From positions 1,116,001 to 1,180,000 of the forward strand of contig NC_015635.1 of the NCBI RefSeq assembly GCF_000270245.1: a DNA stretch of 64,000 nt. Reading direction: 5' to 3'. Shown here in pieces: positions 29,938 to 41,438 of this stretch; the first letter of the stretch is position 1; the number at the start of each line of letters is the position of its first letter. The translations under genes were made by a program, and so were the position numbers. Origin of the DNA: Microlunatus phosphovorus NM-1. Lineage in GTDB: Bacteria; Actinomycetota; Actinomycetes; Propionibacteriales; Propionibacteriaceae. Below the pieces are notes generated by a model. That model was not told the origin of the DNA. It made no database searches and saw only the letters and a list, made by a program, of their open reading frames with translations.

Positions 29938-30819
29938 GTGGCGTACCGCACGTTGGGATCCGGTCAGCGTTGTCAGGTGTGGGTCGGGGGGCCGGACCTG
30001 GTGGAGCCGGAGTTGATCTTCGAGACCGACGAGTTGCTGATCGAGGCGCCGAACTGGTCGTTGGCCGGCGACGTGCTGTACGTCAACGGGAACGGGCGGC
30101 TGTGGCGGCTGCCCGTGGACGGTTCCGCGGGACTGGAAGAGATCCCGCACCAGGGCCTGCCGAGCATCAACAACGATCACGTCCTCGACCCGGACGGCGA
30201 GCAGGTCTATCTATCCGCCGAGGACGGCCACATCTACCGCGCCGCGCTGACTGGAGGACCGGTTGAGCGGGTCACGGTGGACGAGGGCGTATGGCACTTC
30301 CTCCACGGTGTCTCGCCGGACGGCGGCCGGCTGGCGTACGTTCGCCTCAAGGACTTCGCCGAACCCGGGCGGCTGGCGATCATGGCGCCGCATGGACCGA
30401 CAACGGTCGTCGACACCGGGCCCGGCCATCTCGACGGCCCGGAGTGGTCACCGGACGGGCGGTGGATCTATGTCAACACCGAGGCCTTTACCGATCGACC
30501 CGGTCACGCCCAGCTCGCCCGCGTACGCGATGCCAGTCTCGGCGAAGGAACGGAGATCGAACGGCTGGTGGTCAGCGACACGGTCGACTGGTTCCCGCAC
30601 CTGTCACGCGACGGGCACTTCGCCAGCTACATCGTGTTCCCACCGGGCACGTTGGGACATCCGCCGGACTTGGACGTCGAGGTCCGAGTCGTGTCGACAG
30701 CCGACTGGACCGTGCCGCTGCGGCGCTATCCGCTGTTCGGCGGTCAGGGCACGCTCAACGTCAACAGCTGGGCCCCGACCGGCCGGAGGTTCGCCTTTGT
30801 GGCCTACCCGATTCAATAG
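29938..30819 (+). CDS. TolB-like beta-propeller (PD40-repeat) protein
   Basis: A 293-residue cytoplasmic propeller. Repeats with [ST]-x-D-G-x-x-[IV]-Y are visible: LDPDGEQVYLSAEDGHIYRA, VSPDGGRLAYVRLKD, WSPDGRWIYVN, LSRDGHFASYIVF, WAPTGRRFAFVAYP. There is no signal peptide, so unlike TolB it is not exported. The GTG at 29938 is favoured by TAGGG eight bases upstream. It is 46 bp upstream of a Fic gene on the same strand. Confidence 0.8.
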   Translation: MAYRTLGSGQRCQVWVGGPDLVEPELIFETDELLIEAPNWSLAGDVLYVNGNGRLWRLPVDGSAGLEEIPHQGLPSINNDHVLDPDGEQVYLSAEDGHIYRAALTGGPVERVTVDEGVWHFLHGVSPDGGRLAYVRLKDFAEPGRLAIMAPHGPTTVVDTGPGHLDGPEWSPDGRWIYVNTEAFTDRPGHAQLARVRDASLGEGTEIERLVVSDTVDWFPHLSRDGHFASYIVFPPGTLGHPPDLDVEVRVVSTADWTVPLRRYPLFGGQGTLNVNSWAPTGRRFAFVAYPIQ

Positions 30820-30865
30820 CGTCATCACCGACCAAGCAGCGACGGCCGGAGGAGGGGACAGACCT

Positions 30866-31621
30866 GTGATCGCAGACGAGTACGCCATCGATCCCCGTCG
30901 GTACGCCAAGGTGTTGCGCGAGCAGCACTCGAGCAGGATGAAGGGCGGCATCTATCACCTGACCCAGATAGTGATGGCCTACAACTCGAACAAGATCGAG
31001 GGCAGCCAGCTGAGCTCGGAGCAGACCCGGTACATCTACGAGACGCGCACCATCGCGGGGGACGATGTCAATGTCGACGACATCATCGAGACCGTCAATC
31101 ATTTCCAGGCGTTCGACGAGATGCTCGATCAGGTGGACGAGCCGATCACGGCGCAGACGATGAAGAGTTGCCATCGCACCCTCAAGCACGGCACGGCGGA
31201 CGCCCGTCAGGACTGGTTCGCCATCGGCGACTGGAAGCGCCTGGCCAATGCGATCGGAGACGTCCAGACCACCGCGCCCGCGAAGGTCGAACTCAAGATA
31301 ACGCAGCTGCTGAGATCAGTCCCGGAGACGATGTCTTTCGAGGACATCGTCGACTTCCACCACCGCTTCGAGCGCATTCACCCTTTCCAGGACGGCAACG
31401 GCCGGGTGGGCCGGCTGCTCATGTTCCAGCAATGCCTGCGGAACGGCATCATGCCCTTCGTCGTGCTTGACGCGCAGAAGCAGTTCTACTACCGGGGCCT
31501 CAGTGAATATGACGACGAGCCCGGCTTCTTACGCGACACGTTCCGCTCTTTCCAGGACGCCTACTACGACCGGTTTGCCCCGTTCGTCGAGGTGCTGCCC
31601 GCCTCTGGGAAGTACACGTAG
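30866..31621 (+). CDS. Fic family protein, class II (N-terminal inhibitory motif)
   Basis: A 251-residue Fic enzyme, which transfers AMP or a similar group from a nucleotide to a protein hydroxyl. The active-site motif HPFQDGNGR is complete, with catalytic His172. The N-terminal helix has S41-N-K-I-E45-G46, the (S/T)xxxE(G/N) inhibitory motif, whose Glu blocks productive ATP binding; this marks class II self-inhibited Fic proteins. FVVLDAQKQFYYRGL covers the flap and partner region. The GTG at 30866 follows GGAGGGG. It has no antitoxin gene beside it, as expected when the inhibitor is intramolecular. Confidence 0.9.
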   Translation: MIADEYAIDPRRYAKVLREQHSSRMKGGIYHLTQIVMAYNSNKIEGSQLSSEQTRYIYETRTIAGDDVNVDDIIETVNHFQAFDEMLDQVDEPITAQTMKSCHRTLKHGTADARQDWFAIGDWKRLANAIGDVQTTAPAKVELKITQLLRSVPETMSFEDIVDFHHRFERIHPFQDGNGRVGRLLMFQQCLRNGIMPFVVLDAQKQFYYRGLSEYDDEPGFLRDTFRSFQDAYYDRFAPFVEVLPASGKYT

Positions 31622-31677: not shown

Positions 31678-33096
31678 CTACGGCACCTTGGCCGGCAGCC
31701 GGACTCGGATGGTGGTGCCGTAGCCGACCTGGCTGATCACCTCGGATGTGCCACCGTGGGCAGCGACGATCGAGGACACGATGGCCAGCCCCAGACCGGC
31801 GCCGCCGGTGTGGCGGGTACGGCTGGCGTCGCCGCGCCAGAACCGGGTGAACACGTGGGCGCGGTCCTCGACCGGGATGCCAGGGCCGTGATCGGTGACC
31901 AGCAGAGTGTGTACGCGGCTGCCGGCTTCGCCAGCATCGGTCGGCGCCGGTCGGACCGTCACCTCGACCGGGCTGCCGGGGGGCGTGTGCTGGACCGCAT
32001 TGCCGACCAGGTTCTGCAGCACCTGCTGCAGCTTCGGTGCGTCGCCCAACAGCGTCGCCGGCCCGGCCGCGTGTAGCGAGAACGTACGGTCGGGGTTGAT
32101 CACGCGGGCGTCCTCCACCACCTCGGTCGCCAGCACGGCGAGATCGACCGGATCGAGATCCAGCGGTCGCGCCCGGTCGAGTCGGGCGAGCAGCGCGAGT
32201 TCGTCGATCAGCACTCGCATCCGTCCCAGCTGGGTCATCGCGCGCTGCATGGCCTGGTCGCGGCGGTCCTCGTCGGTCAGGCCGCCCTGCAGATAGAGCT
32301 CGATCCAGCCGGTCGCGGTGGTCAGCGGGGTCCGCAGTTCGTGGGAGGCGTCGGCGACGAACGCGCGCAATCGAGCCTCTGCCTGCTGCTGGACGTCGAA
32401 CGCCTCGTTCACGGTGAGCGCCAACCGTTGCATGTCCGGATCGTCGGTCGGCACCGGCAGTCGTACGGTTCGATCGCCCGCCGCGAAGGCGTGCGCCTGC
32501 TCCGTCATCCCGTTCAGTGGCCGCAAGCTGCGGCGCACGATGAGCACGGTCGCCGCGGTGATCGCGGCCAGTGCGCCGGCCACGCCGGCCACGGCGATCA
32601 GCACCAGTCGCCGTTGGGCGGCGGCGGCGACCCTGGTATCGAACCCGATGATCATCGCGTCGGCCTGGACGATCGTGCCGTCGGTATCGACGAAGCTGGC
32701 CTGGGCAGGGCCGATGTCCAACCGGATCGCCAGCATCCCCGGCCGGTCGGGGACCTCATGCGGCCGACCATCGTTCAGGGCGGCGCCCTGGAGCGCGACG
32801 GCAGTCTCCCGGTCGGTGTTCACCGCCATGGCGACCCGTCCATCGTTCTCGATCACGACGGCGGCGTTCTCCGGCTTGGCCATGCTCTCGGTGGTCGCCG
32901 CATCGATCTGGAGTCCGTGCAGCCCGATCAGACCGGCCTCGATCCGACCCGCAGTCGTCACCAGCCGATTGTCGATCTGGTCACGCATATAGGAGCCGAC
33001 GAAGAGCACCGAAAGCGTCGTCGTCACGACGATGACGATCACGCTGCTCGTCACCAGCAGGACGATCAGTCGGGAGCGAAGCGTCCAGCGCGTCAC
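31678..33096 (-). CDS. Sensor histidine kinase (two-component system)
   Basis: A 472-residue membrane kinase. Helix 1 about 9-31; an extracellular sensor part about 32-155; helix 2 about 160-182; HAMP; then the dimerisation domain with phospho-His252 in ADASHELRTPLTTATGWIELY; and the ATPase domain with LQNLVGNAVQHT (N box), DHGPGIP (G1) and GGAGLGLAIV (G2). It overlaps the response regulator by four bases. The divergent neighbour is an envelope-transporter cluster, its probable target. The ligand is unknown. Confidence 0.93.
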   Translation of the reverse strand: MTRWTLRSRLIVLLVTSSVIVIVVTTTLSVLFVGSYMRDQIDNRLVTTAGRIEAGLIGLHGLQIDAATTESMAKPENAAVVIENDGRVAMAVNTDRETAVALQGAALNDGRPHEVPDRPGMLAIRLDIGPAQASFVDTDGTIVQADAMIIGFDTRVAAAAQRRLVLIAVAGVAGALAAITAATVLIVRRSLRPLNGMTEQAHAFAAGDRTVRLPVPTDDPDMQRLALTVNEAFDVQQQAEARLRAFVADASHELRTPLTTATGWIELYLQGGLTDEDRRDQAMQRAMTQLGRMRVLIDELALLARLDRARPLDLDPVDLAVLATEVVEDARVINPDRTFSLHAAGPATLLGDAPKLQQVLQNLVGNAVQHTPPGSPVEVTVRPAPTDAGEAGSRVHTLLVTDHGPGIPVEDRAHVFTRFWRGDASRTRHTGGAGLGLAIVSSIVAAHGGTSEVISQVGYGTTIRVRLPAKVP

Positions 33097-33842
33097 GTCA
33101 TTCCTTCGTCGGCCCGGATCGTGTAGCCGAAGCCTCGAACGGTGTGGATCAGCGGCGGGAGGTCGGCATCGATCTTGCGCCGCAGATTGGAGACGAACCG
33201 TTCGACCACGTTGCTGTCGCCACCGAAGTCGTACTGCCAGAGCTGATCGAGGATCTGGGCTTTCGACAGGACCCGGCCCTGGTGGAGCAGCAGATAGACC
33301 AGCAGCCGGAACTCGGTGGGGGACAAGTCGATGCTGCGGCCCGCTCGCCGGGTCAGATGGCGGTCCTCGTCGACCTCCAGATCACCGCAACGCAGCACAC
33401 CCCTGGGCGACACCCCGGTCGATGCCAGCCGATCCAGACCGGGCTGCCCCGCCTGGCCGTACCCGCCGGCCCGGCGCAGCAGACCCTCCAGCCGTACGGT
33501 CACCTCGACCACGCTGAACGGTTTGATCAGGTAGTCGTCGGCACCGAGCCGCAGCCCTTTGACCCGGTCCTCCACCGTGTCCCGCGCCGACAAGAACAGC
33601 ACCGGCATGGTCTCGCCCCGATGGCGCAGCAACTGGACGAAGTCGAAGCCGTCGATGCCGGGCATCATCACGTCCAGCACGATCGCGTCCGGATCGTCGG
33701 AGCCGAACAATGCGAGCGCCGCCTGGGCGTCCGCTGCGGTGCTCACCCGGAAACCGGCGAAGCTCAACGACGACTGCAGCATCTCCCGGATGCCGTCGTC
33801 GTCATCCACCACCAGCACGTGGGCCTGCGTCGACCGCGTCAC
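33093..33842 (-). CDS. OmpR/PhoB-type response regulator
   Basis: A 249-residue regulator. The receiver has the acidic cluster VVDDDDG, phospho-acceptor Asp57 (IVLDVMMPG) and Lys in DDYLIKPFSV. The C-terminal winged helix has LSPTEFRLLVYLLLHQGRVLSKAQILDQLW and VVERFVSNLRRKI. The start is GTG at 33842. It is the first gene of the operon with the kinase. Three CGTCAG sites in the upstream gap may be its binding sites. Confidence 0.94.
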   Translation of the reverse strand: MTRSTQAHVLVVDDDDGIREMLQSSLSFAGFRVSTAADAQAALALFGSDDPDAIVLDVMMPGIDGFDFVQLLRHRGETMPVLFLSARDTVEDRVKGLRLGADDYLIKPFSVVEVTVRLEGLLRRAGGYGQAGQPGLDRLASTGVSPRGVLRCGDLEVDEDRHLTRRAGRSIDLSPTEFRLLVYLLLHQGRVLSKAQILDQLWQYDFGGDSNVVERFVSNLRRKIDADLPPLIHTVRGFGYTIRADEGMT

Positions 33843-34020: not shown

Positions 34021-37000
34021 ATGTCGACTTTCCTGTATGCCCTAGGGCATGCCGTCGCGCGTCACCGCTGGCGAGCACTGCTGGTCTGGGTGCTGCTCAC
34101 CGTGCTCTGCTTCGGCGTGAGCAGCGTGGCCAAGGGCGCACTGGTCAACGACTACTCGATTCCAGGTACGGAGTCGCAGGCCGGCATCGACACCCTCGAT
34201 CAGCGCTTTCCCCAGGCCTCGGGCACCACCGGGCAGCTGGTGTTCCAGTCCAAGTCCGGGCCGATCAGCGACCACAAGTCGGCCATCGAGAGCCAGATCA
34301 AGGCGATCGAGAAGGTCAAGCACGTCAGCAGCGTCGACGACCCGTTCGCCTCGGGTGCGGTCGGGACCATCTCCGACAACAAGGAGTTCGCCCAGTCCCA
34401 GATCCAGTTCGACGTCTCGGTCACCGATCTGAACGAGACCACGATCCACGAGGTGGAGAAGGCCGCCGTCACACCGGCCGGGCAGAACTACATCACCACG
34501 CTCGGCGGCGACATGTACACCCCGACCGGGGCCGGCGTCGGATTGACCGACCTGATCGGTGTCTTCGTCGCGTTCGTGGTGCTGTCGATCACATTCGGCT
34601 CGCTCGTCGCCGCCGGGCTGCCGCTGATCACGGCCGGGCTTGGCGTTGGGATCACCATGTCGACGATCCTGACCATCGCCTCGGTGGCGACCATCTCCAC
34701 CACCACCCCGACCTTGGCCTTGATGATCGGCCTGGCCGTCGGCATCGACTACGGCCTGTTCATCGTCACCCGGCACCGACGACAGCTCGCTCAGGGCCTC
34801 ACCGTCGAGGAGTCGATCGCGCAGGCCTCGGCCACCGCCGGGTCGGCGGTGGTGTTCGCCGGTACGACCGTGATCATCGCGCTGTGCGGCCTGGCGGTGG
34901 CCAACATCCCCTTCCTCACCGTGATGGGTGTCGCTGCCGCCTGCGGTGTCGCGGTCGCGGTCTGTGCGGCGCTGACCCTGCTGCCGGCCTTCCTGGCCAT
35001 CTGTGGCAATCGGCTCCGGCCCAAGGAGAAGTCGCATGCGGTCAAGCTCGCTGCCAAGGCGGCCGCCGGGCGCACGATGGGCGCGCACTGGGTGGCGATC
35101 GTCACCAAGATCCCGGCGCTCACCGTAGCGGTGGTGCTGCTGGTGATCGGCGTGGCCGCCTTCCCGGTCAAGGACCTGGCGCTGGCCTTGCCGGACAACG
35201 GCAGCGCCGAGCCCGGTACGCCGCCGCGTACCACCTTCGACCTGATCGCCAAGGAGTTCGGACCCGGCTTCAACGCCCCGCTGCTGGTGACCTCGGACAT
35301 CATCACCAGCACCGACCCGAAGGGCACGGTGCAGTCCCTCGCCGACGACATCGCCAAGATCCCCGGGGTCAAGGCGATCACCAAGCAGACGCCGAACCAG
35401 ACCGCCGATCTCGGGCTGGTCCGGGCCGTGCCGGAATGGGCGCAGAGCGATCCGCGGACCACCGAGCTGGTCGGCAAGATCCGCGCCCAGGCGCCAGGCT
35501 GGGAGGACAAGCTCAAGATCTCCGACATCACCGTCACCGGCACCACCGCGGTGGCGATCGACGTCAACAGCCGGCTGAGCGGCGCGCTGGTGCCGTTCGG
35601 GCTGGTGGTGGTCGGCTTGGCGCTGTTGTTGTTGATGATCGTCTTCCGCTCCGTCGCGGTGCCGATCAAGGCCGCCCTGGGATATCTGCTGTCGATCGGG
35701 GCGGCGCTGGGCACCGTGACGGCCTGCTTCATCTGGGGCTGGGGTGCCGGCCCGCTCGGGATCAGCGCGATCGGCCCGATCGTCAGCTTCCTGCCGATCA
35801 TCTTGATGGGGGTGCTGTTCGGCCTGGCCATGGACTACGAGGTGTTCCTGGTCTCGGCGATCCGGGAGGACTACGTCCACAGTGCCGCACATCCAGGTCT
35901 GCAGAACCGGGCGGGTCATGCGATCCGGACCGGGTTCATCTCCAGCGCGCGAGTGGTCACGGCGGCAGCGGTCATCATGATCTCGGTCTTCGCCGCATTC
36001 ATCCCCGAAGGCAGCTCGACGATCAAGCCGATCGCCGTCGGCTTGGCGGTCGGGGTGTTCGTGGATGCCTTCCTGGTTCGGATGACGTTGGTGCCCGCCG
36101 TGCTGGCACTGCTCGGCGACAAGGCGTGGTGGATGCCGAAGCGGCTCGATGCGGCGCTGCCGCATATCGACGTCGAGGGCTCGGCTCTGGTCCGGCATGT
36201 CGAGCAGGTCGACTGGGACGAGGCGCACCCGGCGATCGCGATCCGCGGCGAGGGAGCGCTGATCGCCGCCGGCAGCGGTCCCGCGCCGGTCGAGCTCTCG
36301 GTGCCGACGCAGGCCACCGTCAGCTACGACCATCCGGACCCCGGAGTCCGTACGGCACTGGTGTGGACGTTGGCCGGTTGGCGCAAACCGGCCGGTGGGG
36401 TGTTGTCGGTGCTGGGTCAGGTGCTGCCGGAAGAGGCCGGCTACGTACGCAAGCTGGTGCGGGTGATACCGCTGCCCAGCAGCGACGACGACGCGGTCTC
36501 GGTCCGCCGATATGTGTCCACGTTGCTGATCGCGCAGTCCGGGAAACCCTGGCCGTCGCCGAAGACCACCTCGCGGGCAGTCCAGTACGCGACGGGCTGG
36601 CTGTCACCATTGCGCGGACCGGTTGGCGATGCCCCGCCGCTGGGGGAGCGCCGGCTGGGTCAGCTGACCGCCCTGGAACGCCGACTGGTCACGCTGGCTG
36701 CGGCCGCCGTCCAGAGTCCGAAGCTGATCGTGGTGGAGGAACCGGACCGCGACCTCGCGACCGCCGAGCTGTCCTGGTTCGCCGGTGTCTGCGCCGAACT
36801 GGTCCACGACGCCGGGCTGACGGTGCTGCTGGTCGGGGCGAAAGTCACCGCGCTGGCCGGTGCGGAAGCTGGGGGAGGTGCGGGAGTGGCGGTGGACGCC
36901 GTCGAGCCGGCCGAGCAGGTGACGCCATCGGAGGGCGGTTCGGTCGAGCGGGTTGACGTCGAATCGGCCGCCGAGATGACGCTCGTCCGCGATGGCGCGG

Positions 37001-37149
37001 CTGTTCTCGATGCGGAGTCGGTCCCGGAGATCCCAGTCGTCTCCGAGGTCGAGACGGATGTCGAGTCGGTGGACCGACCCGGCGAGTCTCCACCGCCCAA
37101 CGAGGACGGACCGGAAGCCAGAGAGGAGCGGGCCCATGAGCTCGCCTGA
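34021..37149 (+). CDS. MMPL/RND transporter fused to a degenerate ABC-ATPase-like domain
   Basis: A 1,042-residue protein. Residues about 1-705 are an MMPL-family transporter: helix at the N-terminus, a long external loop, helices 2-6 (VGIDYGLFIVTRHRRQL), a second loop and helices 7-12 (GVLFGLAMDYEVFLVSAIRED), which exports lipids or hydrophobic compounds using the proton gradient. Residues about 715-945 look like an ABC nucleotide-binding domain: TALVWTLAGWRKPAGGVLSV, LGERRLGQLTALERRLV in place of the signature, and LIVVEEPD as Walker B (901-908). Walker A is degenerate (PGVRTA). An acidic tail follows. It overlaps the YhgE/Pip gene by 14 bases. Confidence 0.85.
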   Translation: MSTFLYALGHAVARHRWRALLVWVLLTVLCFGVSSVAKGALVNDYSIPGTESQAGIDTLDQRFPQASGTTGQLVFQSKSGPISDHKSAIESQIKAIEKVKHVSSVDDPFASGAVGTISDNKEFAQSQIQFDVSVTDLNETTIHEVEKAAVTPAGQNYITTLGGDMYTPTGAGVGLTDLIGVFVAFVVLSITFGSLVAAGLPLITAGLGVGITMSTILTIASVATISTTTPTLALMIGLAVGIDYGLFIVTRHRRQLAQGLTVEESIAQASATAGSAVVFAGTTVIIALCGLAVANIPFLTVMGVAAACGVAVAVCAALTLLPAFLAICGNRLRPKEKSHAVKLAAKAAAGRTMGAHWVAIVTKIPALTVAVVLLVIGVAAFPVKDLALALPDNGSAEPGTPPRTTFDLIAKEFGPGFNAPLLVTSDIITSTDPKGTVQSLADDIAKIPGVKAITKQTPNQTADLGLVRAVPEWAQSDPRTTELVGKIRAQAPGWEDKLKISDITVTGTTAVAIDVNSRLSGALVPFGLVVVGLALLLLMIVFRSVAVPIKAALGYLLSIGAALGTVTACFIWGWGAGPLGISAIGPIVSFLPIILMGVLFGLAMDYEVFLVSAIREDYVHSAAHPGLQNRAGHAIRTGFISSARVVTAAAVIMISVFAAFIPEGSSTIKPIAVGLAVGVFVDAFLVRMTLVPAVLALLGDKAWWMPKRLDAALPHIDVEGSALVRHVEQVDWDEAHPAIAIRGEGALIAAGSGPAPVELSVPTQATVSYDHPDPGVRTALVWTLAGWRKPAGGVLSVLGQVLPEEAGYVRKLVRVIPLPSSDDDAVSVRRYVSTLLIAQSGKPWPSPKTTSRAVQYATGWLSPLRGPVGDAPPLGERRLGQLTALERRLVTLAAAAVQSPKLIVVEEPDRDLATAELSWFAGVCAELVHDAGLTVLLVGAKVTALAGAEAGGGAGVAVDAVEPAEQVTPSEGGSVERVDVESAAEMTLVRDGAAVLDAESVPEIPVVSEVETDVESVDRPGESPPPNEDGPEAREERAHELA

Positions 37150-39376
37150 ACGCAAGCGCACGGCGCCGGCACCGATGTCGCGCTGGCTGGTGCCGGTGGT
37201 GGCGATCCTGCTCACGGCACTCGCCGGCGGCATCGTGCTGTGGGCCGTCCACGGTCATCAAAACAGCGGGCCGGCGGTGCCGCTCGCCATCGTCAATCTC
37301 GATCAGCCGGTCACCCAGGGCTCGGGCAGCGACGCGAAGACGATCGCCGCGGGCCGCCAGCTCGCGGCCAGCCTCAGCTCACCCGATCCGGACAACCAGA
37401 CCCCGCTGTCCTGGCAGCTGGTCGATTCCGACGACGCGGCAACCGGTCTGCGGGACGGCACCTACTACGGCGTGCTCACCATCCCGAAGAGCTTCTCGGC
37501 GCAGGTCACCTCGACCTCGTCGACGAAGCCGGAGCAGGCGCAGCTCAAACTGGTGAACAACGATGCGGCCAGCGCTGCGGTCGCCGCCTTGGCCCAACTG
37601 TCGGTCAACGAGGCTGCCCGAGGTCTTGGCGACCAGGTGACCAGCAACTACGTCGACGCGATGCTGCAGAACCTGACCAAGATCAACAAGAATCTGACCA
37701 GCTCGGCCAAGAGCGCAGACTCCCTGGCCAGCTCCAGTCATGAGCTCGCTGACTCCGCCGAGCAGCTCGCCGGGTCTGCCGACCAGGTCGCCGACGGCGC
37801 GGGCAGCCTCGACAGCGGCACCAAGAGCCTGGAATCGGGTACGGAGTCGCTGGCCGCCGGGGCCAGCAGCGCGGCCCGCGGGGCCGACCAGGTCGCCTCC
37901 GGCGCCCGTGAGCTGGCCTCCGCCGCGGGTCGGCTCGCCTCCGGGGCGTCAGCCGCGGCCAAGGGCGCCGACGATGTCGCCAAGGGCGCCTCGGATCTGG
38001 CCGACCTCGCCGATGGCCTGCACAAGGGCACCGGGACACTGGCGACGTTGACCGATCGCCAGAACACCGGGCTGGGGCGGACGGACCGAGCGGCCGGTGC
38101 CCATGCGACCGGAGCCGCCGACGTCGCGGATCGAGCAGCTCGGATCGCCGACGACTGTCCGGCCGCGCTGGACGCCGGGTACTGCCAACGGGTCGCCGAT
38201 CTTGCCCGCCGGATCGGCGTCGAGTCGCGTGCTGCCACCGCGCTGGACAAGCTGGTCGGGGTCCAGGTCGACCGCGGTAAGGCGATCGACAAGGCGGCCG
38301 GCCGGATCGACACTGCCGCCGGCCGACTCGACACCGGGCTCGGCAAGCTCGGGCCTGCAGCGAAGAAGGTCGGGAACGCGGTCGACGACATCGGCGACGG
38401 TGCGACCGAACTGGAGCGGGCGGCGACCTCGCTCGCCTCCGGTGCCGCCGAGGTGGCCGACGGGACCCGCAGCGTGGCCGACGGTGCGGCCAAGACTGCG
38501 TCGGGCGTCCAGGACATGGCCGTTGCCGCCGACGAGCTGTCCACCGGCACCGACAAGCTGGCCTCGGGGGCACACCAGCTCGCCGATGGTGCCGACCAGC
38601 TCGCCGACGGCAACGACCAGCTGGCCTCCGGGCTGGCGAGCGGCGCCAAGCAGGTGCCCAGTTACAGCGATGATGAGCGCAAGGCACTCGATGAGGTGGT
38701 CACCACTCCGGTGACGGTCAAGACCAGTGCCGACAACCCGAGCACCGTGGCCGCCGGTCTGGTTCCTGTCGTTCTCGGTCTGGCGCTCTGGCTCGGCACC
38801 TTGATGATGCTGCTCACCAGGCCGCCGGTTCCGGTCGGGCTGTCGTGGGCCCAGGCGTCCCCGATCCGCCGGGTGGCGTTCGGTCTTGCCCCGGTGGTTC
38901 TAGTCGGCCTGGTGCAGGCGGGTCTGCTGATCGGTCTGGTGGCGATCGTCGGGATGCCGATTTCGTCCCCGCTCGGGCTGACGCTGTTCACGGTCCTCGG
39001 GGTGTTCGCGTTTGCCGCCACCAACCAAGCGCTGGTCAGCCTGTTCGGCGGTATCGGCCGGCTGGTCAGCCTCGCCTTCGCCCTGGTGGAGGCGGCGGCT
39101 CTGGGCGGGCTGATGCCGATCGAGACGGCGCCCGCCGGGATCCAGCTGCTGAACGGAATGCTGCCGCTGCCCCAGTTCGTCAACGGCGCCGGGCAGCAGC
39201 TGCTCGGCGGTCACGGTGGCCTGGCGACCGCCTGCCTGGTGCTGTCGCTCTGGACGGTGCTCGCGTTGGGTGTCTCGGTGCTCGCCGCCGCCCGCCGCAG
39301 CAGCCGGATCGGAGCCGGCGACTCCAGCACAGGGATCCCAGAACCACACCCGCGACCCGAGGCGGCGCCGGCATAG
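37136..39376 (+). CDS. YhgE/Pip family membrane protein
   Basis: A 746-residue protein: one N-terminal helix (about 12-38), an external domain starting VPLAIVNLDQPV, a long helical section (about 200-545) made of repeats such as ADQLADGNDQLASG and GASSAARGADQVASGARELA, then five or six C-terminal helices of ABC-2 type. Relatives serve as phage receptors (Pip) or parts of protein/lipid export systems (type VII secretion-linked YhgE/EsaA). The ATG is inside the end of the MMPL gene, which indicates coupled translation. Confidence 0.85.
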   Translation: MSSPERKRTAPAPMSRWLVPVVAILLTALAGGIVLWAVHGHQNSGPAVPLAIVNLDQPVTQGSGSDAKTIAAGRQLAASLSSPDPDNQTPLSWQLVDSDDAATGLRDGTYYGVLTIPKSFSAQVTSTSSTKPEQAQLKLVNNDAASAAVAALAQLSVNEAARGLGDQVTSNYVDAMLQNLTKINKNLTSSAKSADSLASSSHELADSAEQLAGSADQVADGAGSLDSGTKSLESGTESLAAGASSAARGADQVASGARELASAAGRLASGASAAAKGADDVAKGASDLADLADGLHKGTGTLATLTDRQNTGLGRTDRAAGAHATGAADVADRAARIADDCPAALDAGYCQRVADLARRIGVESRAATALDKLVGVQVDRGKAIDKAAGRIDTAAGRLDTGLGKLGPAAKKVGNAVDDIGDGATELERAATSLASGAAEVADGTRSVADGAAKTASGVQDMAVAADELSTGTDKLASGAHQLADGADQLADGNDQLASGLASGAKQVPSYSDDERKALDEVVTTPVTVKTSADNPSTVAAGLVPVVLGLALWLGTLMMLLTRPPVPVGLSWAQASPIRRVAFGLAPVVLVGLVQAGLLIGLVAIVGMPISSPLGLTLFTVLGVFAFAATNQALVSLFGGIGRLVSLAFALVEAAALGGLMPIETAPAGIQLLNGMLPLPQFVNGAGQQLLGGHGGLATACLVLSLWTVLALGVSVLAAARRSSRIGAGDSSTGIPEPHPRPEAAPA

Positions 39377-39537
39377 GACCACAATTTCGGTCCATGGGTG
39401 GGTTCACCGTCCTGGGCCGGGTGCTGGCTCGCAATCTCCATCCATGGGTGAGAATTCCAACGCGGGATCTGGGAAGTTCGGTCCGAAAGCCGTCCATGGA
39501 CGGAATTGCCGACCGGTGAGAAGTTCGTAGGAGGGTG
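39377..39537. repeat. Diverged tandem array, period 50-52 bp, core TCCATGG
   Basis: TCCATGGGTG occurs at 39391 and 39441, and TCCATGGACG at 39493: spacing 50 and 52 bp. Units two and three also share GAATT and GAAGTTCG at equal distances. It fills the gap between the YhgE/Pip and PrsW genes. No frame here is coding. Confidence 0.55.
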
Positions 39538-40380
39538 ATGAGCGAGCTATCTGCACGAGTTCCGAGGCGGCACCGGTTCGCCTGGCTGCTGGTCCTGGTG
39601 GGCGGCGTGGCCGCTTACCTGATCGTGCTGCGTACGCTGGTCGCCACCCAGAACCCGCTGTATGTGCCGTCGCTGCTGTTGCTCGGCTCGGCCGTGGTGC
39701 CGGCGGCGGTGCTCGTCTATGCGGCATCCGGCCGACAAGGCTCGCCGGTCGGTGCCGGGGTGATTGCCGCGGTGGCCGGGATCGGCGGGGTGTTCGGCAC
39801 CGTCGCGGCCGGCACCTTGGAGTACGACACGCTGCAACGCCTCGGTGCGGTCCCGATGATCATGGTCGGGCTGATCGAGGAGTCGGCCAAGCTGGTCGTC
39901 CCGATCGTGATCTTGATCTTCGTACGACGCCTTCGCGTGCCTGCTGCCGGGGTGGTGATCGGGGTCGCGTCGGGCATGGGTTTCGCCACCCTCGAGACGA
40001 TGGGGTACGGCTTCTCCGCGCTGCTGCAGACCCGCTCGATCGCCGAGCTGGACCAGACCCTGCTGTTACGGGGGCTGCTGTCTCCGGCCGGCCACGTGGC
40101 CTGGACCGGGATCACCACGGCGGCGCTGTGGCATGTTGCGTCTGCCCCGCGCAAAGGCCGCGCGGTCCTGCTGTTCCTTGGCGCGTTTGCCGGCAGCGTC
40201 GCATTGCATGCGCTCTGGGACGGTACGAACAGTGTGCTCGTCCGGGCCATCGTCGGCCTGGTCAGCTTTGGTGCCCTGTTGATCGTCGTCCGTCGTTCCC
40301 GCCGACTCGGCTCGGCCAACCCGATCCCGCCCGGCCCTATTCCGCCCGACTCCATGGGGACTTCCGTCGAGCGAGCATGA
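39538..40380 (+). CDS. PrsW family intramembrane metalloprotease
   Basis: A 280-residue integral membrane protein with about eight helices. The PrsW motifs are present: LIEESAKLVVP (EExxK, near 114), FATLETMGYGF (second Glu), GHVAWTGITTAALWH and VALHALWDG, whose His residues complete a metal site. PrsW proteases cleave anti-sigma factors or other membrane proteins. ATG 39538 or the GTG one codon earlier follow AGGAGG closely. It overlaps the FUSC gene as ATGA. Confidence 0.85.
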   Translation: MSELSARVPRRHRFAWLLVLVGGVAAYLIVLRTLVATQNPLYVPSLLLLGSAVVPAAVLVYAASGRQGSPVGAGVIAAVAGIGGVFGTVAAGTLEYDTLQRLGAVPMIMVGLIEESAKLVVPIVILIFVRRLRVPAAGVVIGVASGMGFATLETMGYGFSALLQTRSIAELDQTLLLRGLLSPAGHVAWTGITTAALWHVASAPRKGRAVLLFLGAFAGSVALHALWDGTNSVLVRAIVGLVSFGALLIVVRRSRRLGSANPIPPGPIPPDSMGTSVERA

Positions 40381-41438
40381 ACATCTCCGGCAAGCTCGAC
40401 AGAACTCGGCGGGTGGTGCTGGCGGACCTGGTCGCCCTCCGTCCCGCGCAGGGCACTCGTCGGGGTGCCATCCGCGCGGCCGTCACGATGACGACGATGC
40501 TCACCGGGTTGGCCGTCGCAGGCCGACTCGACTGGTCGATCTATGCGACCTTCGGAGCCTTCACCTGTGTCTACGGCGGCAGCCGTCCCCGGCCGGAGCG
40601 CTGGCGTACCCAGGCCTTCCTCGGCCTGCTGCTGACCGCCGCCGTCGCCTCCGGTGCCCTGGTCGGCCTCAGCGATCAGCGCCGCTGGCTGGCCATCCCG
40701 GTGGTCGCGCTGTGGGCCACGGCGGGCGCGGTGCTCTCCGATCGCTACTCCTGGCGACCGCCGGGCCCGCTCTTCGTGGTGTTCGCCGTCGCCACCTGCA
40801 GTGCCATCCCGACCACACCGCCGGTGGTGTTGATCGCCCTTGGCCTTGCCGCGCTGACCGCCGCCTTCGCGGTCCTGCTCGGAGTGCTGGAGGCGCGCTG
40901 GCTGCCCGGTCGATCCTGGAGACCACCGCCACCGGGCCTGCCGCCGCCACCGGCGCATCGGCAACGGATCCAGGCGATCCGGTGTGCGGTCGCCGTCGCG
41001 ATTGCCGGGCTGATCTCGACGACCGCCGGGATCCCCCACCCCTATTGGGCGATGATCGCCGCGGTGGTGCCGCTCGCCGCCCGGCCGTTGCGGGCGCAGT
41101 TGGTGCGCGGCGTCCACCGCACGCTGGGGACCCTGGTGGGCCTGGCGGTCGCCGCAGCGCTGCTGGTCGCGCCGCTGCCGGTGGCGGTGACGATCGCTCT
41201 GATCGCTGTGCTGCAGGGGACTGCTGAGCTGCTGGTGATCCGCAACTACGGCTTGGCGCTGGTCGCGATCACACCGCTCTCACTGCTCTCGATGCAGCTG
41301 GCCAACCCGCAGCCGGTGCCGGCCCTGCTCGTCGACCGGCTGGTCGAGACCCTGATCGGGGTTGCCGTCGGACTGGTGGTCGCGATCGTCACTCGCGACC
41401 GTACGGTGCCCTTCGTCGACGGATACGCGCCGCGGTAG
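40377..41438 (+). CDS. FUSC family membrane protein
   Basis: A 353-residue membrane protein with two groups of helices separated by a Pro-rich loop (PPPPGLPPPPAHRQRI, about 186-200). The second group has HPYWAMIAAVVPLAARPLRAQLVRGVHRTLGTLVGL, the aromatic-acid exporter/FUSC-like pattern. Related proteins take part in efflux of aromatic acids or other organic anions. It starts on the stop codon of prsW, so the two are coupled. It is the last gene of the + strand run. Confidence 0.8.
   Translation: MNISGKLDRTRRVVLADLVALRPAQGTRRGAIRAAVTMTTMLTGLAVAGRLDWSIYATFGAFTCVYGGSRPRPERWRTQAFLGLLLTAAVASGALVGLSDQRRWLAIPVVALWATAGAVLSDRYSWRPPGPLFVVFAVATCSAIPTTPPVVLIALGLAALTAAFAVLLGVLEARWLPGRSWRPPPPGLPPPPAHRQRIQAIRCAVAVAIAGLISTTAGIPHPYWAMIAAVVPLAARPLRAQLVRGVHRTLGTLVGLAVAAALLVAPLPVAVTIALIAVLQGTAELLVIRNYGLALVAITPLSLLSMQLANPQPVPALLVDRLVETLIGVAVGLVVAIVTRDRTVPFVDGYAPR

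Follow-up and report, generated by a model that had tools for sequence, protein, structure and literature searches.

MMPL proteins, which are RND-type transporters, frequently carry lipids as cargo, and they and the ABC transporters are usually treated as separate machines with separate fuels. YhgE/Pip proteins are widespread and, to our knowledge, have no settled function. The Phage Infection Protein (Pip) family is described as having homologues in the ABC-2 superfamily (PMC3924187). In the complete genome (5,683,123 bases) of Microlunatus phosphovorus NM-1, a stretch of 64,000 nucleotides was analysed (NC_015635.1, positions 1,116,001 to 1,180,000; "the window", to which coordinates refer unless another locus is named). 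It encodes an MMPL transporter whose chain continues into a degenerate ABC-type nucleotide-binding domain (NBD) and whose gene overlaps that of a YhgE/Pip protein. Here, we describe the ancestry of the domain, the recurrence of the fusion in other genomes and the linkage of the domain and its relatives to YhgE/Pip genes, and weigh what the domain may do.

A degenerate ABC domain at the end of an MMPL transporter

The open reading frame at 34021-37149 is a real gene. A first-pass annotation made from the sequence had claimed that the tail after the last MMPL helices follows the order of an ABC NBD, and this order is borne out by relatives, a family profile and fold prediction; the segments it had picked, HPDPGVRT (residues 771-778), LTALERRLV (882-890), KLIVVEEPD (901-909) and LTVLLVGAK (933-941), are in place. 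Motif columns were assigned from an alignment with three ordinary ABC proteins. The counts for fused proteins refer to a set of 104 (80 from named genomes and 24 others), whose rows are not independent because at least two pairs have identical sequences. The features of the gene are:

34021..37149, + strand: MMPL transporter with C-terminal pseudo-NBD, ATG at 34021, stop at 37147-37149, 1042 amino acids
34021..36129, + strand: MMPL (RND-type) membrane part, residues 1-703, by Pfam PF03176 and Foldseek of the model
34729..34752, + strand: first presumed proton-relay motif GLAVGIDY, residues 237-244, with a matching motif in 102 of 104 fused proteins
35818..35841, + strand: second presumed proton-relay motif FGLAMDYE, residues 600-607, found in 104 of 104 fused proteins
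36160..36870, + strand: degenerate ABC-type NBD, residues 714-950, by AlphaFold2, Foldseek and family profile
36163..36180, + strand: junction motif HIDVEG at the start of the tail, with D, E and G invariant across 24 fused domains
36331..36354, + strand: eroded Walker A HPDPGVRT, aligned with GPSGSGKT (locus L022) and GQAGSGKT (L002)
36664..36690, + strand: signature site LTALERRLV in place of LSGGQ, which aligns with LTRLERKTL-type sites in fused relatives and with LTALDYTRL in a standalone NBD from the same genome
36721..36747, + strand: Walker B region KLIVVEEPD, Walker B Asp changed to Glu, Glu at the catalytic position kept
36817..36843, + strand: switch-strand region LTVLLVGAK, H-loop His absent

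The 1042-residue protein matched PF03176 with an E-value of 9.8e-76 (255.3 bits, above the Pfam cut-off of 20.5), and its full-length model (mean predicted local distance difference test score, pLDDT, 82.4) had MmpL3 (6ajf) as top Foldseek match (E 4.7e-31). The Asp-Tyr pairs of both central helices are intact; by analogy with MmpL3, we take these residues to be the proton relay. The two fused proteins without the first motif are cut by contig ends. A paralog encoded in the same genome is 50% identical over residues 1-816 and has GQAGSGKT at the Walker A position.

The tail domain starts at about residue 714. An AlphaFold2 model of residues 706-965 (pLDDT 85.2, predicted template modelling score 0.82) returned the RecA/ABC-like core on which the claim of the first-pass annotation depended. 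The top Foldseek match of the predicted domain was 4yer (E 2.9e-11, TM-score about 0.6), and the best 50 matches listed were all ABC-type systems by title or known identity; the predicted structure thus has the fold of an ABC NBD. The window domain alone found neither PF00005 nor any other Pfam family at E <= 10. Its ABC matches were weak, with a best E-value of 0.004 in the PDB and of 6.5e-5 in NCBIfam, and no NCBIfam model was above its cut-off among the matches listed; the same held for five relatives among the best 25 NCBIfam matches listed for each. An alignment of all 24 fused domains was unproductive as scan query. The expected match to ABC profiles therefore failed for the window domain by itself, but it was obtained for its family. 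The window domain aligned with the fused domain of L022, from a genome of the same order (G034), with a BLASTP E-value of 4e-12 (database size set to 1e6), and this full-length relative carries GPSGSGKT and matched ABC_tran with an E-value of 3.2e-16 (60.6 bits, cut-off 25). In an ABC_tran scan of six fused domains, those of L022, L089, L002 and L120 were above the cut-off and those of L091 and L005 (E 0.061) below it. When 38 fused domains (window included) were combined into a profile, it found 427 distinct PDB sequences at E <= 0.001, the best being ABCA3 (3.5e-20); among 60 matches listed, 58 were ABC proteins by name or known identity and two were designed TIM barrels. Since relatives match clearly (the Pfam match of L022, the profile and the Walker A of the paralog), the tail of the window MMPL protein is a degenerate ABC NBD. 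Chance resemblance is ruled out by the L022 alignment, the ABC_tran match, the 38-domain profile and the Foldseek result.

At the catalytic positions of the window copy, the Walker A Lys is replaced by Arg, the Q-loop Gln by Ser, the SGG of the signature by TAL and the H-loop His by Ala, so neither GxxGxGK[ST] nor LSGGQ is present. That Walker A is eroded and SGG missing had been noted before and holds for this copy, but not as its peculiarity. By column, the Walker A Lys was found in 25 of the 104 fused proteins and was absent in 79, the window copy among them; a full Walker A by pattern occurs in 24, including all Aeromicrobium and Planobispora loci among the 80 named ones and the same-genome paralog. 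Glu in the catalytic column is kept in two (the window copy is one of them). Of 19 standalone relatives, four have the Walker A Lys and four a full Walker A, 15 have Arg or Gln at the Lys position, and none has the catalytic Glu. An LSGG-type signature was found at the signature site of none of the 104 fused and 19 standalone NBDs; an LSGG-like pattern in L016 lies off that site. Because the loss of the signature is general to every member read of what we call the YhgE/Pip-associated NBD family, it is not an accident of the window copy. Hence, the window copy is one extreme, and some fused relatives have a standard Walker A. We infer that the window domain is a dead ATPase, in which ATP would no longer be burned.

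Linkage of the fused domain to YhgE/Pip genes

The partner gene follows directly:

37136..39376, + strand: YhgE/Pip protein (ABC-2-like), 14-base overlap with the MMPL gene; the start chosen is the most likely one

The encoded protein matched TIGR03061 with an E-value of 6.1e-29 (100.8 bits, above the cut-off of 96.15) and ABC2_membrane_3 with 1.1e-18; with TIGR03062 it reached 91.5 bits and stayed below the cut-off of 102.2. It contains xxxLxxG repeats and a long heptad-repeat region, and a search of PDB sequences gave seven matches only, all of them coiled-coil or repeat proteins. Since its start lies within the last codons of the MMPL gene, the MMPL-NBD protein and the YhgE/Pip protein are probably translated together.

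A scan of species genomes found 310 matching stretches, 171 of them with a relative, and the best 80 were kept as named loci; this set is a biased sample because the scan pattern contains DVEG and the best fused-domain matches were kept. In all 80, the open frame of the MMPL part extends into the tail for 127 residues or more, a few being cut by contig ends. Genera among these loci are Aeromicrobium, Planobispora, Rathayibacter, Cellulomonas, Plantibacter, Brevibacterium, Promicromonospora, Saccharopolyspora and Microlunatus. In addition, the fusion was found by proxy (a match that starts at model position 1-3 and lies in an open frame of 890 amino acids or more) in at least 24 of 296 class genomes, from seven families. 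As the same architecture recurs in both collections, a one-off fusion or misassembly is ruled out; the combination of RND- and ABC-type parts in one chain, tied to YhgE/Pip, which the first-pass annotation had proposed to look for in other actinobacteria, was indeed found there. In one locus (L034:3401-8992), MMPL-NBD and YhgE/Pip lie in a single open frame of 1863 amino acids; its junction is Arg-rich and resembles a frameshift, and it was not accepted as a true triple fusion.

A YhgE/Pip-like frame overlaps or follows the 3' end of the fused gene in 79 of the 80 named loci, and the sole exception (L115) runs off the contig edge. At 23 loci with unfused MMPL genes (chosen from MMPL matches, 13.7-18 kb read per locus), no YhgE/Pip frame was found. 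The linkage was also seen from the side of the partner. The 148 class genomes searched for the YhgE N-terminal family contained 59 matches, spread over 41 genomes; 40 of these matches are above the cut-off and 19 below it. At 38 of the 40 places above the cut-off, an NBD of the YhgE/Pip-associated family lies directly upstream, in 30 cases as a separate gene and in eight fused to MMPL (window included), as read with a family profile built from earlier-collected members, some of them among these 40 places. L241 and L266 have no upstream NBD. The family is a grouping made here, defined by a position directly upstream of YhgE/Pip, as a separate gene or fused, and the window domain belongs to it by this definition. 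None of the 38 upstream NBDs has an LSGG-type signature, and seven match the profile weakly (E 5e-7 to 2e-18) and were read as even more eroded members.

Standalone members show the same gene order: in the 16 neighbourhoods read (of 20), YhgE is directly downstream in every case. The genome of M. phosphovorus itself has a third member of the family, a degenerate NBD with GRSGSGRS, encoded by a gene of its own immediately upstream of YhgE/Pip (L203, C1:3446000-3463000), and thus offers the fusion in two forms and the separate pair for direct comparison within one organism. Three more standalone NBDs adjoining YhgE (L156, L157, L161) belong to a single genus in the same taxonomic family; L158, L159 and L160 were rejected as members, being ordinary ABC genes without YhgE. 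At G877:C9:26608-31681 (L248, L258), two standalone pairs of NBD and YhgE/Pip stand in tandem. Judged by the linkage (79/80, 0/23 and 38/40) and by the tree described below, the fused domain is a predicted partner subunit of YhgE/Pip that is attached, in a single clade, to an MMPL pump.

Origin and possible role of the fused domain

Two quick trees of the MMPL part were calculated, one with 65 fused and 6 unfused rows and one with 38 fused and 19 unfused rows. In both, the fused MMPLs form one clade with an SH-aLRT support of 100. The window copy and L162 (Nocardioidaceae) branch together at the base of this clade, a placement that is unsure because both sit on long branches. At least five changes of the Walker A state and one deletion of the helical subdomain are needed on the tree. 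On these trees the Walker A changes could run in either direction; repeated loss is likely and some regain possible, since most standalone relatives also lack the Lys. In the simplest story, an MMPL gene would have fused once with an NBD gene that was paired with YhgE/Pip and had already lost its signature. In relatives of the window copy the domain is under purifying selection: the ratio of nonsynonymous to synonymous substitution rates (dN/dS) was 0.05-0.45 for the domain in 19 of 19 pairs and 0.06-0.20 for the MMPL part.

We favour, with a probability of about one half, the reading that the domain is a non-hydrolysing cytoplasmic clamp that yokes the proton-driven MMPL exporter to the ABC-2-like YhgE/Pip protein. 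The architecture behind it is plain: the domain is of ABC origin and has lost catalytic motifs, the proton-relay motifs of the MMPL part are intact, the fusion is linked to YhgE/Pip, and the fused MMPLs form a single clade in our trees. For the role, we infer the following. The domain would have stopped burning ATP and would still dock on YhgE/Pip from the cytoplasmic side. Once docked, it could keep the MMPL pump and the YhgE/Pip subunit within one complex, which may move a hydrophobic or lipid-like substrate outward, and the MMPL part would supply, from the proton gradient, the energy once supplied by the ABC ATPase.

Several observations weigh against the clamp. The strongest objection comes from the helical subdomain and Q-loop region, the usual contact of an NBD with its membrane subunit. 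Most fused members lack this region: it is missing in 28 of the 38 tree-set rows and the helical subdomain is kept in ten (window, Aeromicrobium and Planobispora types; labels by reading), so classical docking is closed to most fused members, and the window copy, which keeps the subdomain, is atypical of them. The full Walker A of 24 of the 104 fused proteins would be needless in a pure scaffold. No MMPL gene was found near the standalone NBD-YhgE pairs (0 of 16 neighbourhoods, 11-17 kb read), and the pair can therefore work without MMPL. Among the YhgE relatives below the cut-off, none of the ten read (of 19; L268-L277) has such an NBD adjoining, compared with 38 of 40 above it, which limits the link to the upper group. 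These ten are mostly frames of about 450-590 amino acids and possibly form a separate YhgE/Pip branch. Finally, dN/dS was higher for the domain than for the MMPL part in 16 of the 19 pairs, and the window copy, having no close relative, is in none of these pairs.

A bolder proposal, unlikely but still a contender, is a swap of power source: an ABC-2 system of YhgE/Pip and NBD would have lost its ATPase and been harnessed covalently to the proton-driven MMPL pump, which would drive YhgE/Pip through the dead NBD as a proton-powered ABC transporter. We also hold it to be rather improbable that the domain is a nucleotide sensor that binds ATP without hydrolysis and gates the MMPL pump, window-type copies having been reduced to protein contact. 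The intact Walker A of 24 of 104 proteins, among them the Aeromicrobium and Planobispora loci and the same-genome paralog, fits a sensor, as do two Aeromicrobium pairs with intact Walker A, in which domain and MMPL part are under about equal constraint (dN/dS 0.14 vs 0.13 and 0.07 vs 0.06). However, 79 of 104 fused proteins, the window copy included, lack the Lys, and 15 of 19 standalone relatives carry Arg or Gln in its place. That the domain is a self-association module setting the oligomeric state of MMPL independently of YhgE/Pip is quite unlikely: ABC NBDs do form dimers, and solved MmpS-MmpL assemblies are called hexameric or C3-symmetric in the titles of the structures, but self-association leaves the co-occurrence of fusion and YhgE/Pip (79/80 vs 0/23) unexplained. 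We give still less credit to a decaying remnant without a role beside an MMPL part that works alone. The changes of Walker A, the loss of the helical subdomain and the faster evolution of the domain in 16 of 19 pairs would suit decay; against it, the frame runs through the tail in 104 of 104 proteins (collected partly by that feature), dN/dS stays below 0.5 in 19 of 19 pairs (the window copy in none), residues outside the ATP site are invariant and the model of the window domain is confident. Mixed pairs of an active and a degenerate NBD occur in ABC transporters and the window copy keeps the Glu at the catalytic position, but as each of Walker A, Q-loop, signature and H-loop is changed in this copy, it is highly improbable that the domain still hydrolyses ATP as one half of such a pair, with the active ABC ATPase coming from another locus.

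Neighbouring genes and comparison with known systems

Upstream of the fused gene and divergent from it are genes of a two-component system:

33093..33842, - strand: OmpR-type response regulator (Pfam Response_reg, Trans_reg_C), divergent from the MMPL gene
31678..33096, - strand: sensor histidine kinase (Pfam HATPase_c, HisKA, HAMP), adjoining the response regulator

Within 3.5 kb upstream of the fused gene, a TetR-like frame was found in 67 and a response regulator in one of the 76 named loci with room. Because the two-component system stands in place of the TetR-like frame, the window copy may answer to a different signal. In another genome of the genus (G018), a frame at L045:6165-8501 has about 240 N-terminal MMPL residues, 58% identical to the window MMPL over residues 1-233, joined to the latter half of a histidine kinase in the same orientation, as if divergent genes of the window type had undergone rearrangement. 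A Fic/DOC family protein (Pfam E 3.9e-13) is encoded at 30263-31621, and just downstream of YhgE/Pip (39535-41438) are a PrsW-type intramembrane protease and an overlapping frame that matches FUSC_2 (fusaric acid resistance-like).

Our search of the open literature turned up no description of MMPL fused to an NBD and none of an NBD as partner of YhgE/Pip; it did not extend to subscription journals or preprints, and earlier notice is possible. The YhgE/Pip protein resembles EsaA/YueB of type VII secretion weakly in its N-terminal part (TIGR03929, 54.7 bits, below the cut-off of 122), and membership in a type VII secretion locus is not claimed. By TIGR03061, the downstream gene is a member of YhgE/Pip (TIGR03061, TIGR03062; Phage Infection Protein family, TC 9.B.74). 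Unlike the window locus, the family as described in two passages of PMC3924187 comes without mention of an NBD partner or an MMPL fusion. The linkage found here would provide YhgE/Pip proteins with a partner subunit and connect them, in a way open to testing, with lipid-type export.

Like MmpL3 and other MMPL proteins (PF03176), the membrane part of the fusion has the fold and the Asp-Tyr pairs of the presumed proton relay. Judged by the titles of the MmpL structures listed, added partners are usual, some structures including AcpM, MmpS or a coiled-coil domain, but none mentions an ABC domain. With ABC NBDs (PF00005) the tail of the window copy shares the RecA-like core, the helical subdomain and the order of the motif sites; unlike them, it lacks Walker A, Q-loop, LSGGQ and H-loop and is covalently fused to an MMPL pump. 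A recurrent fusion of this kind, with the ATP engine decayed and the proton relay intact, may be a natural change of the power source of a transporter.

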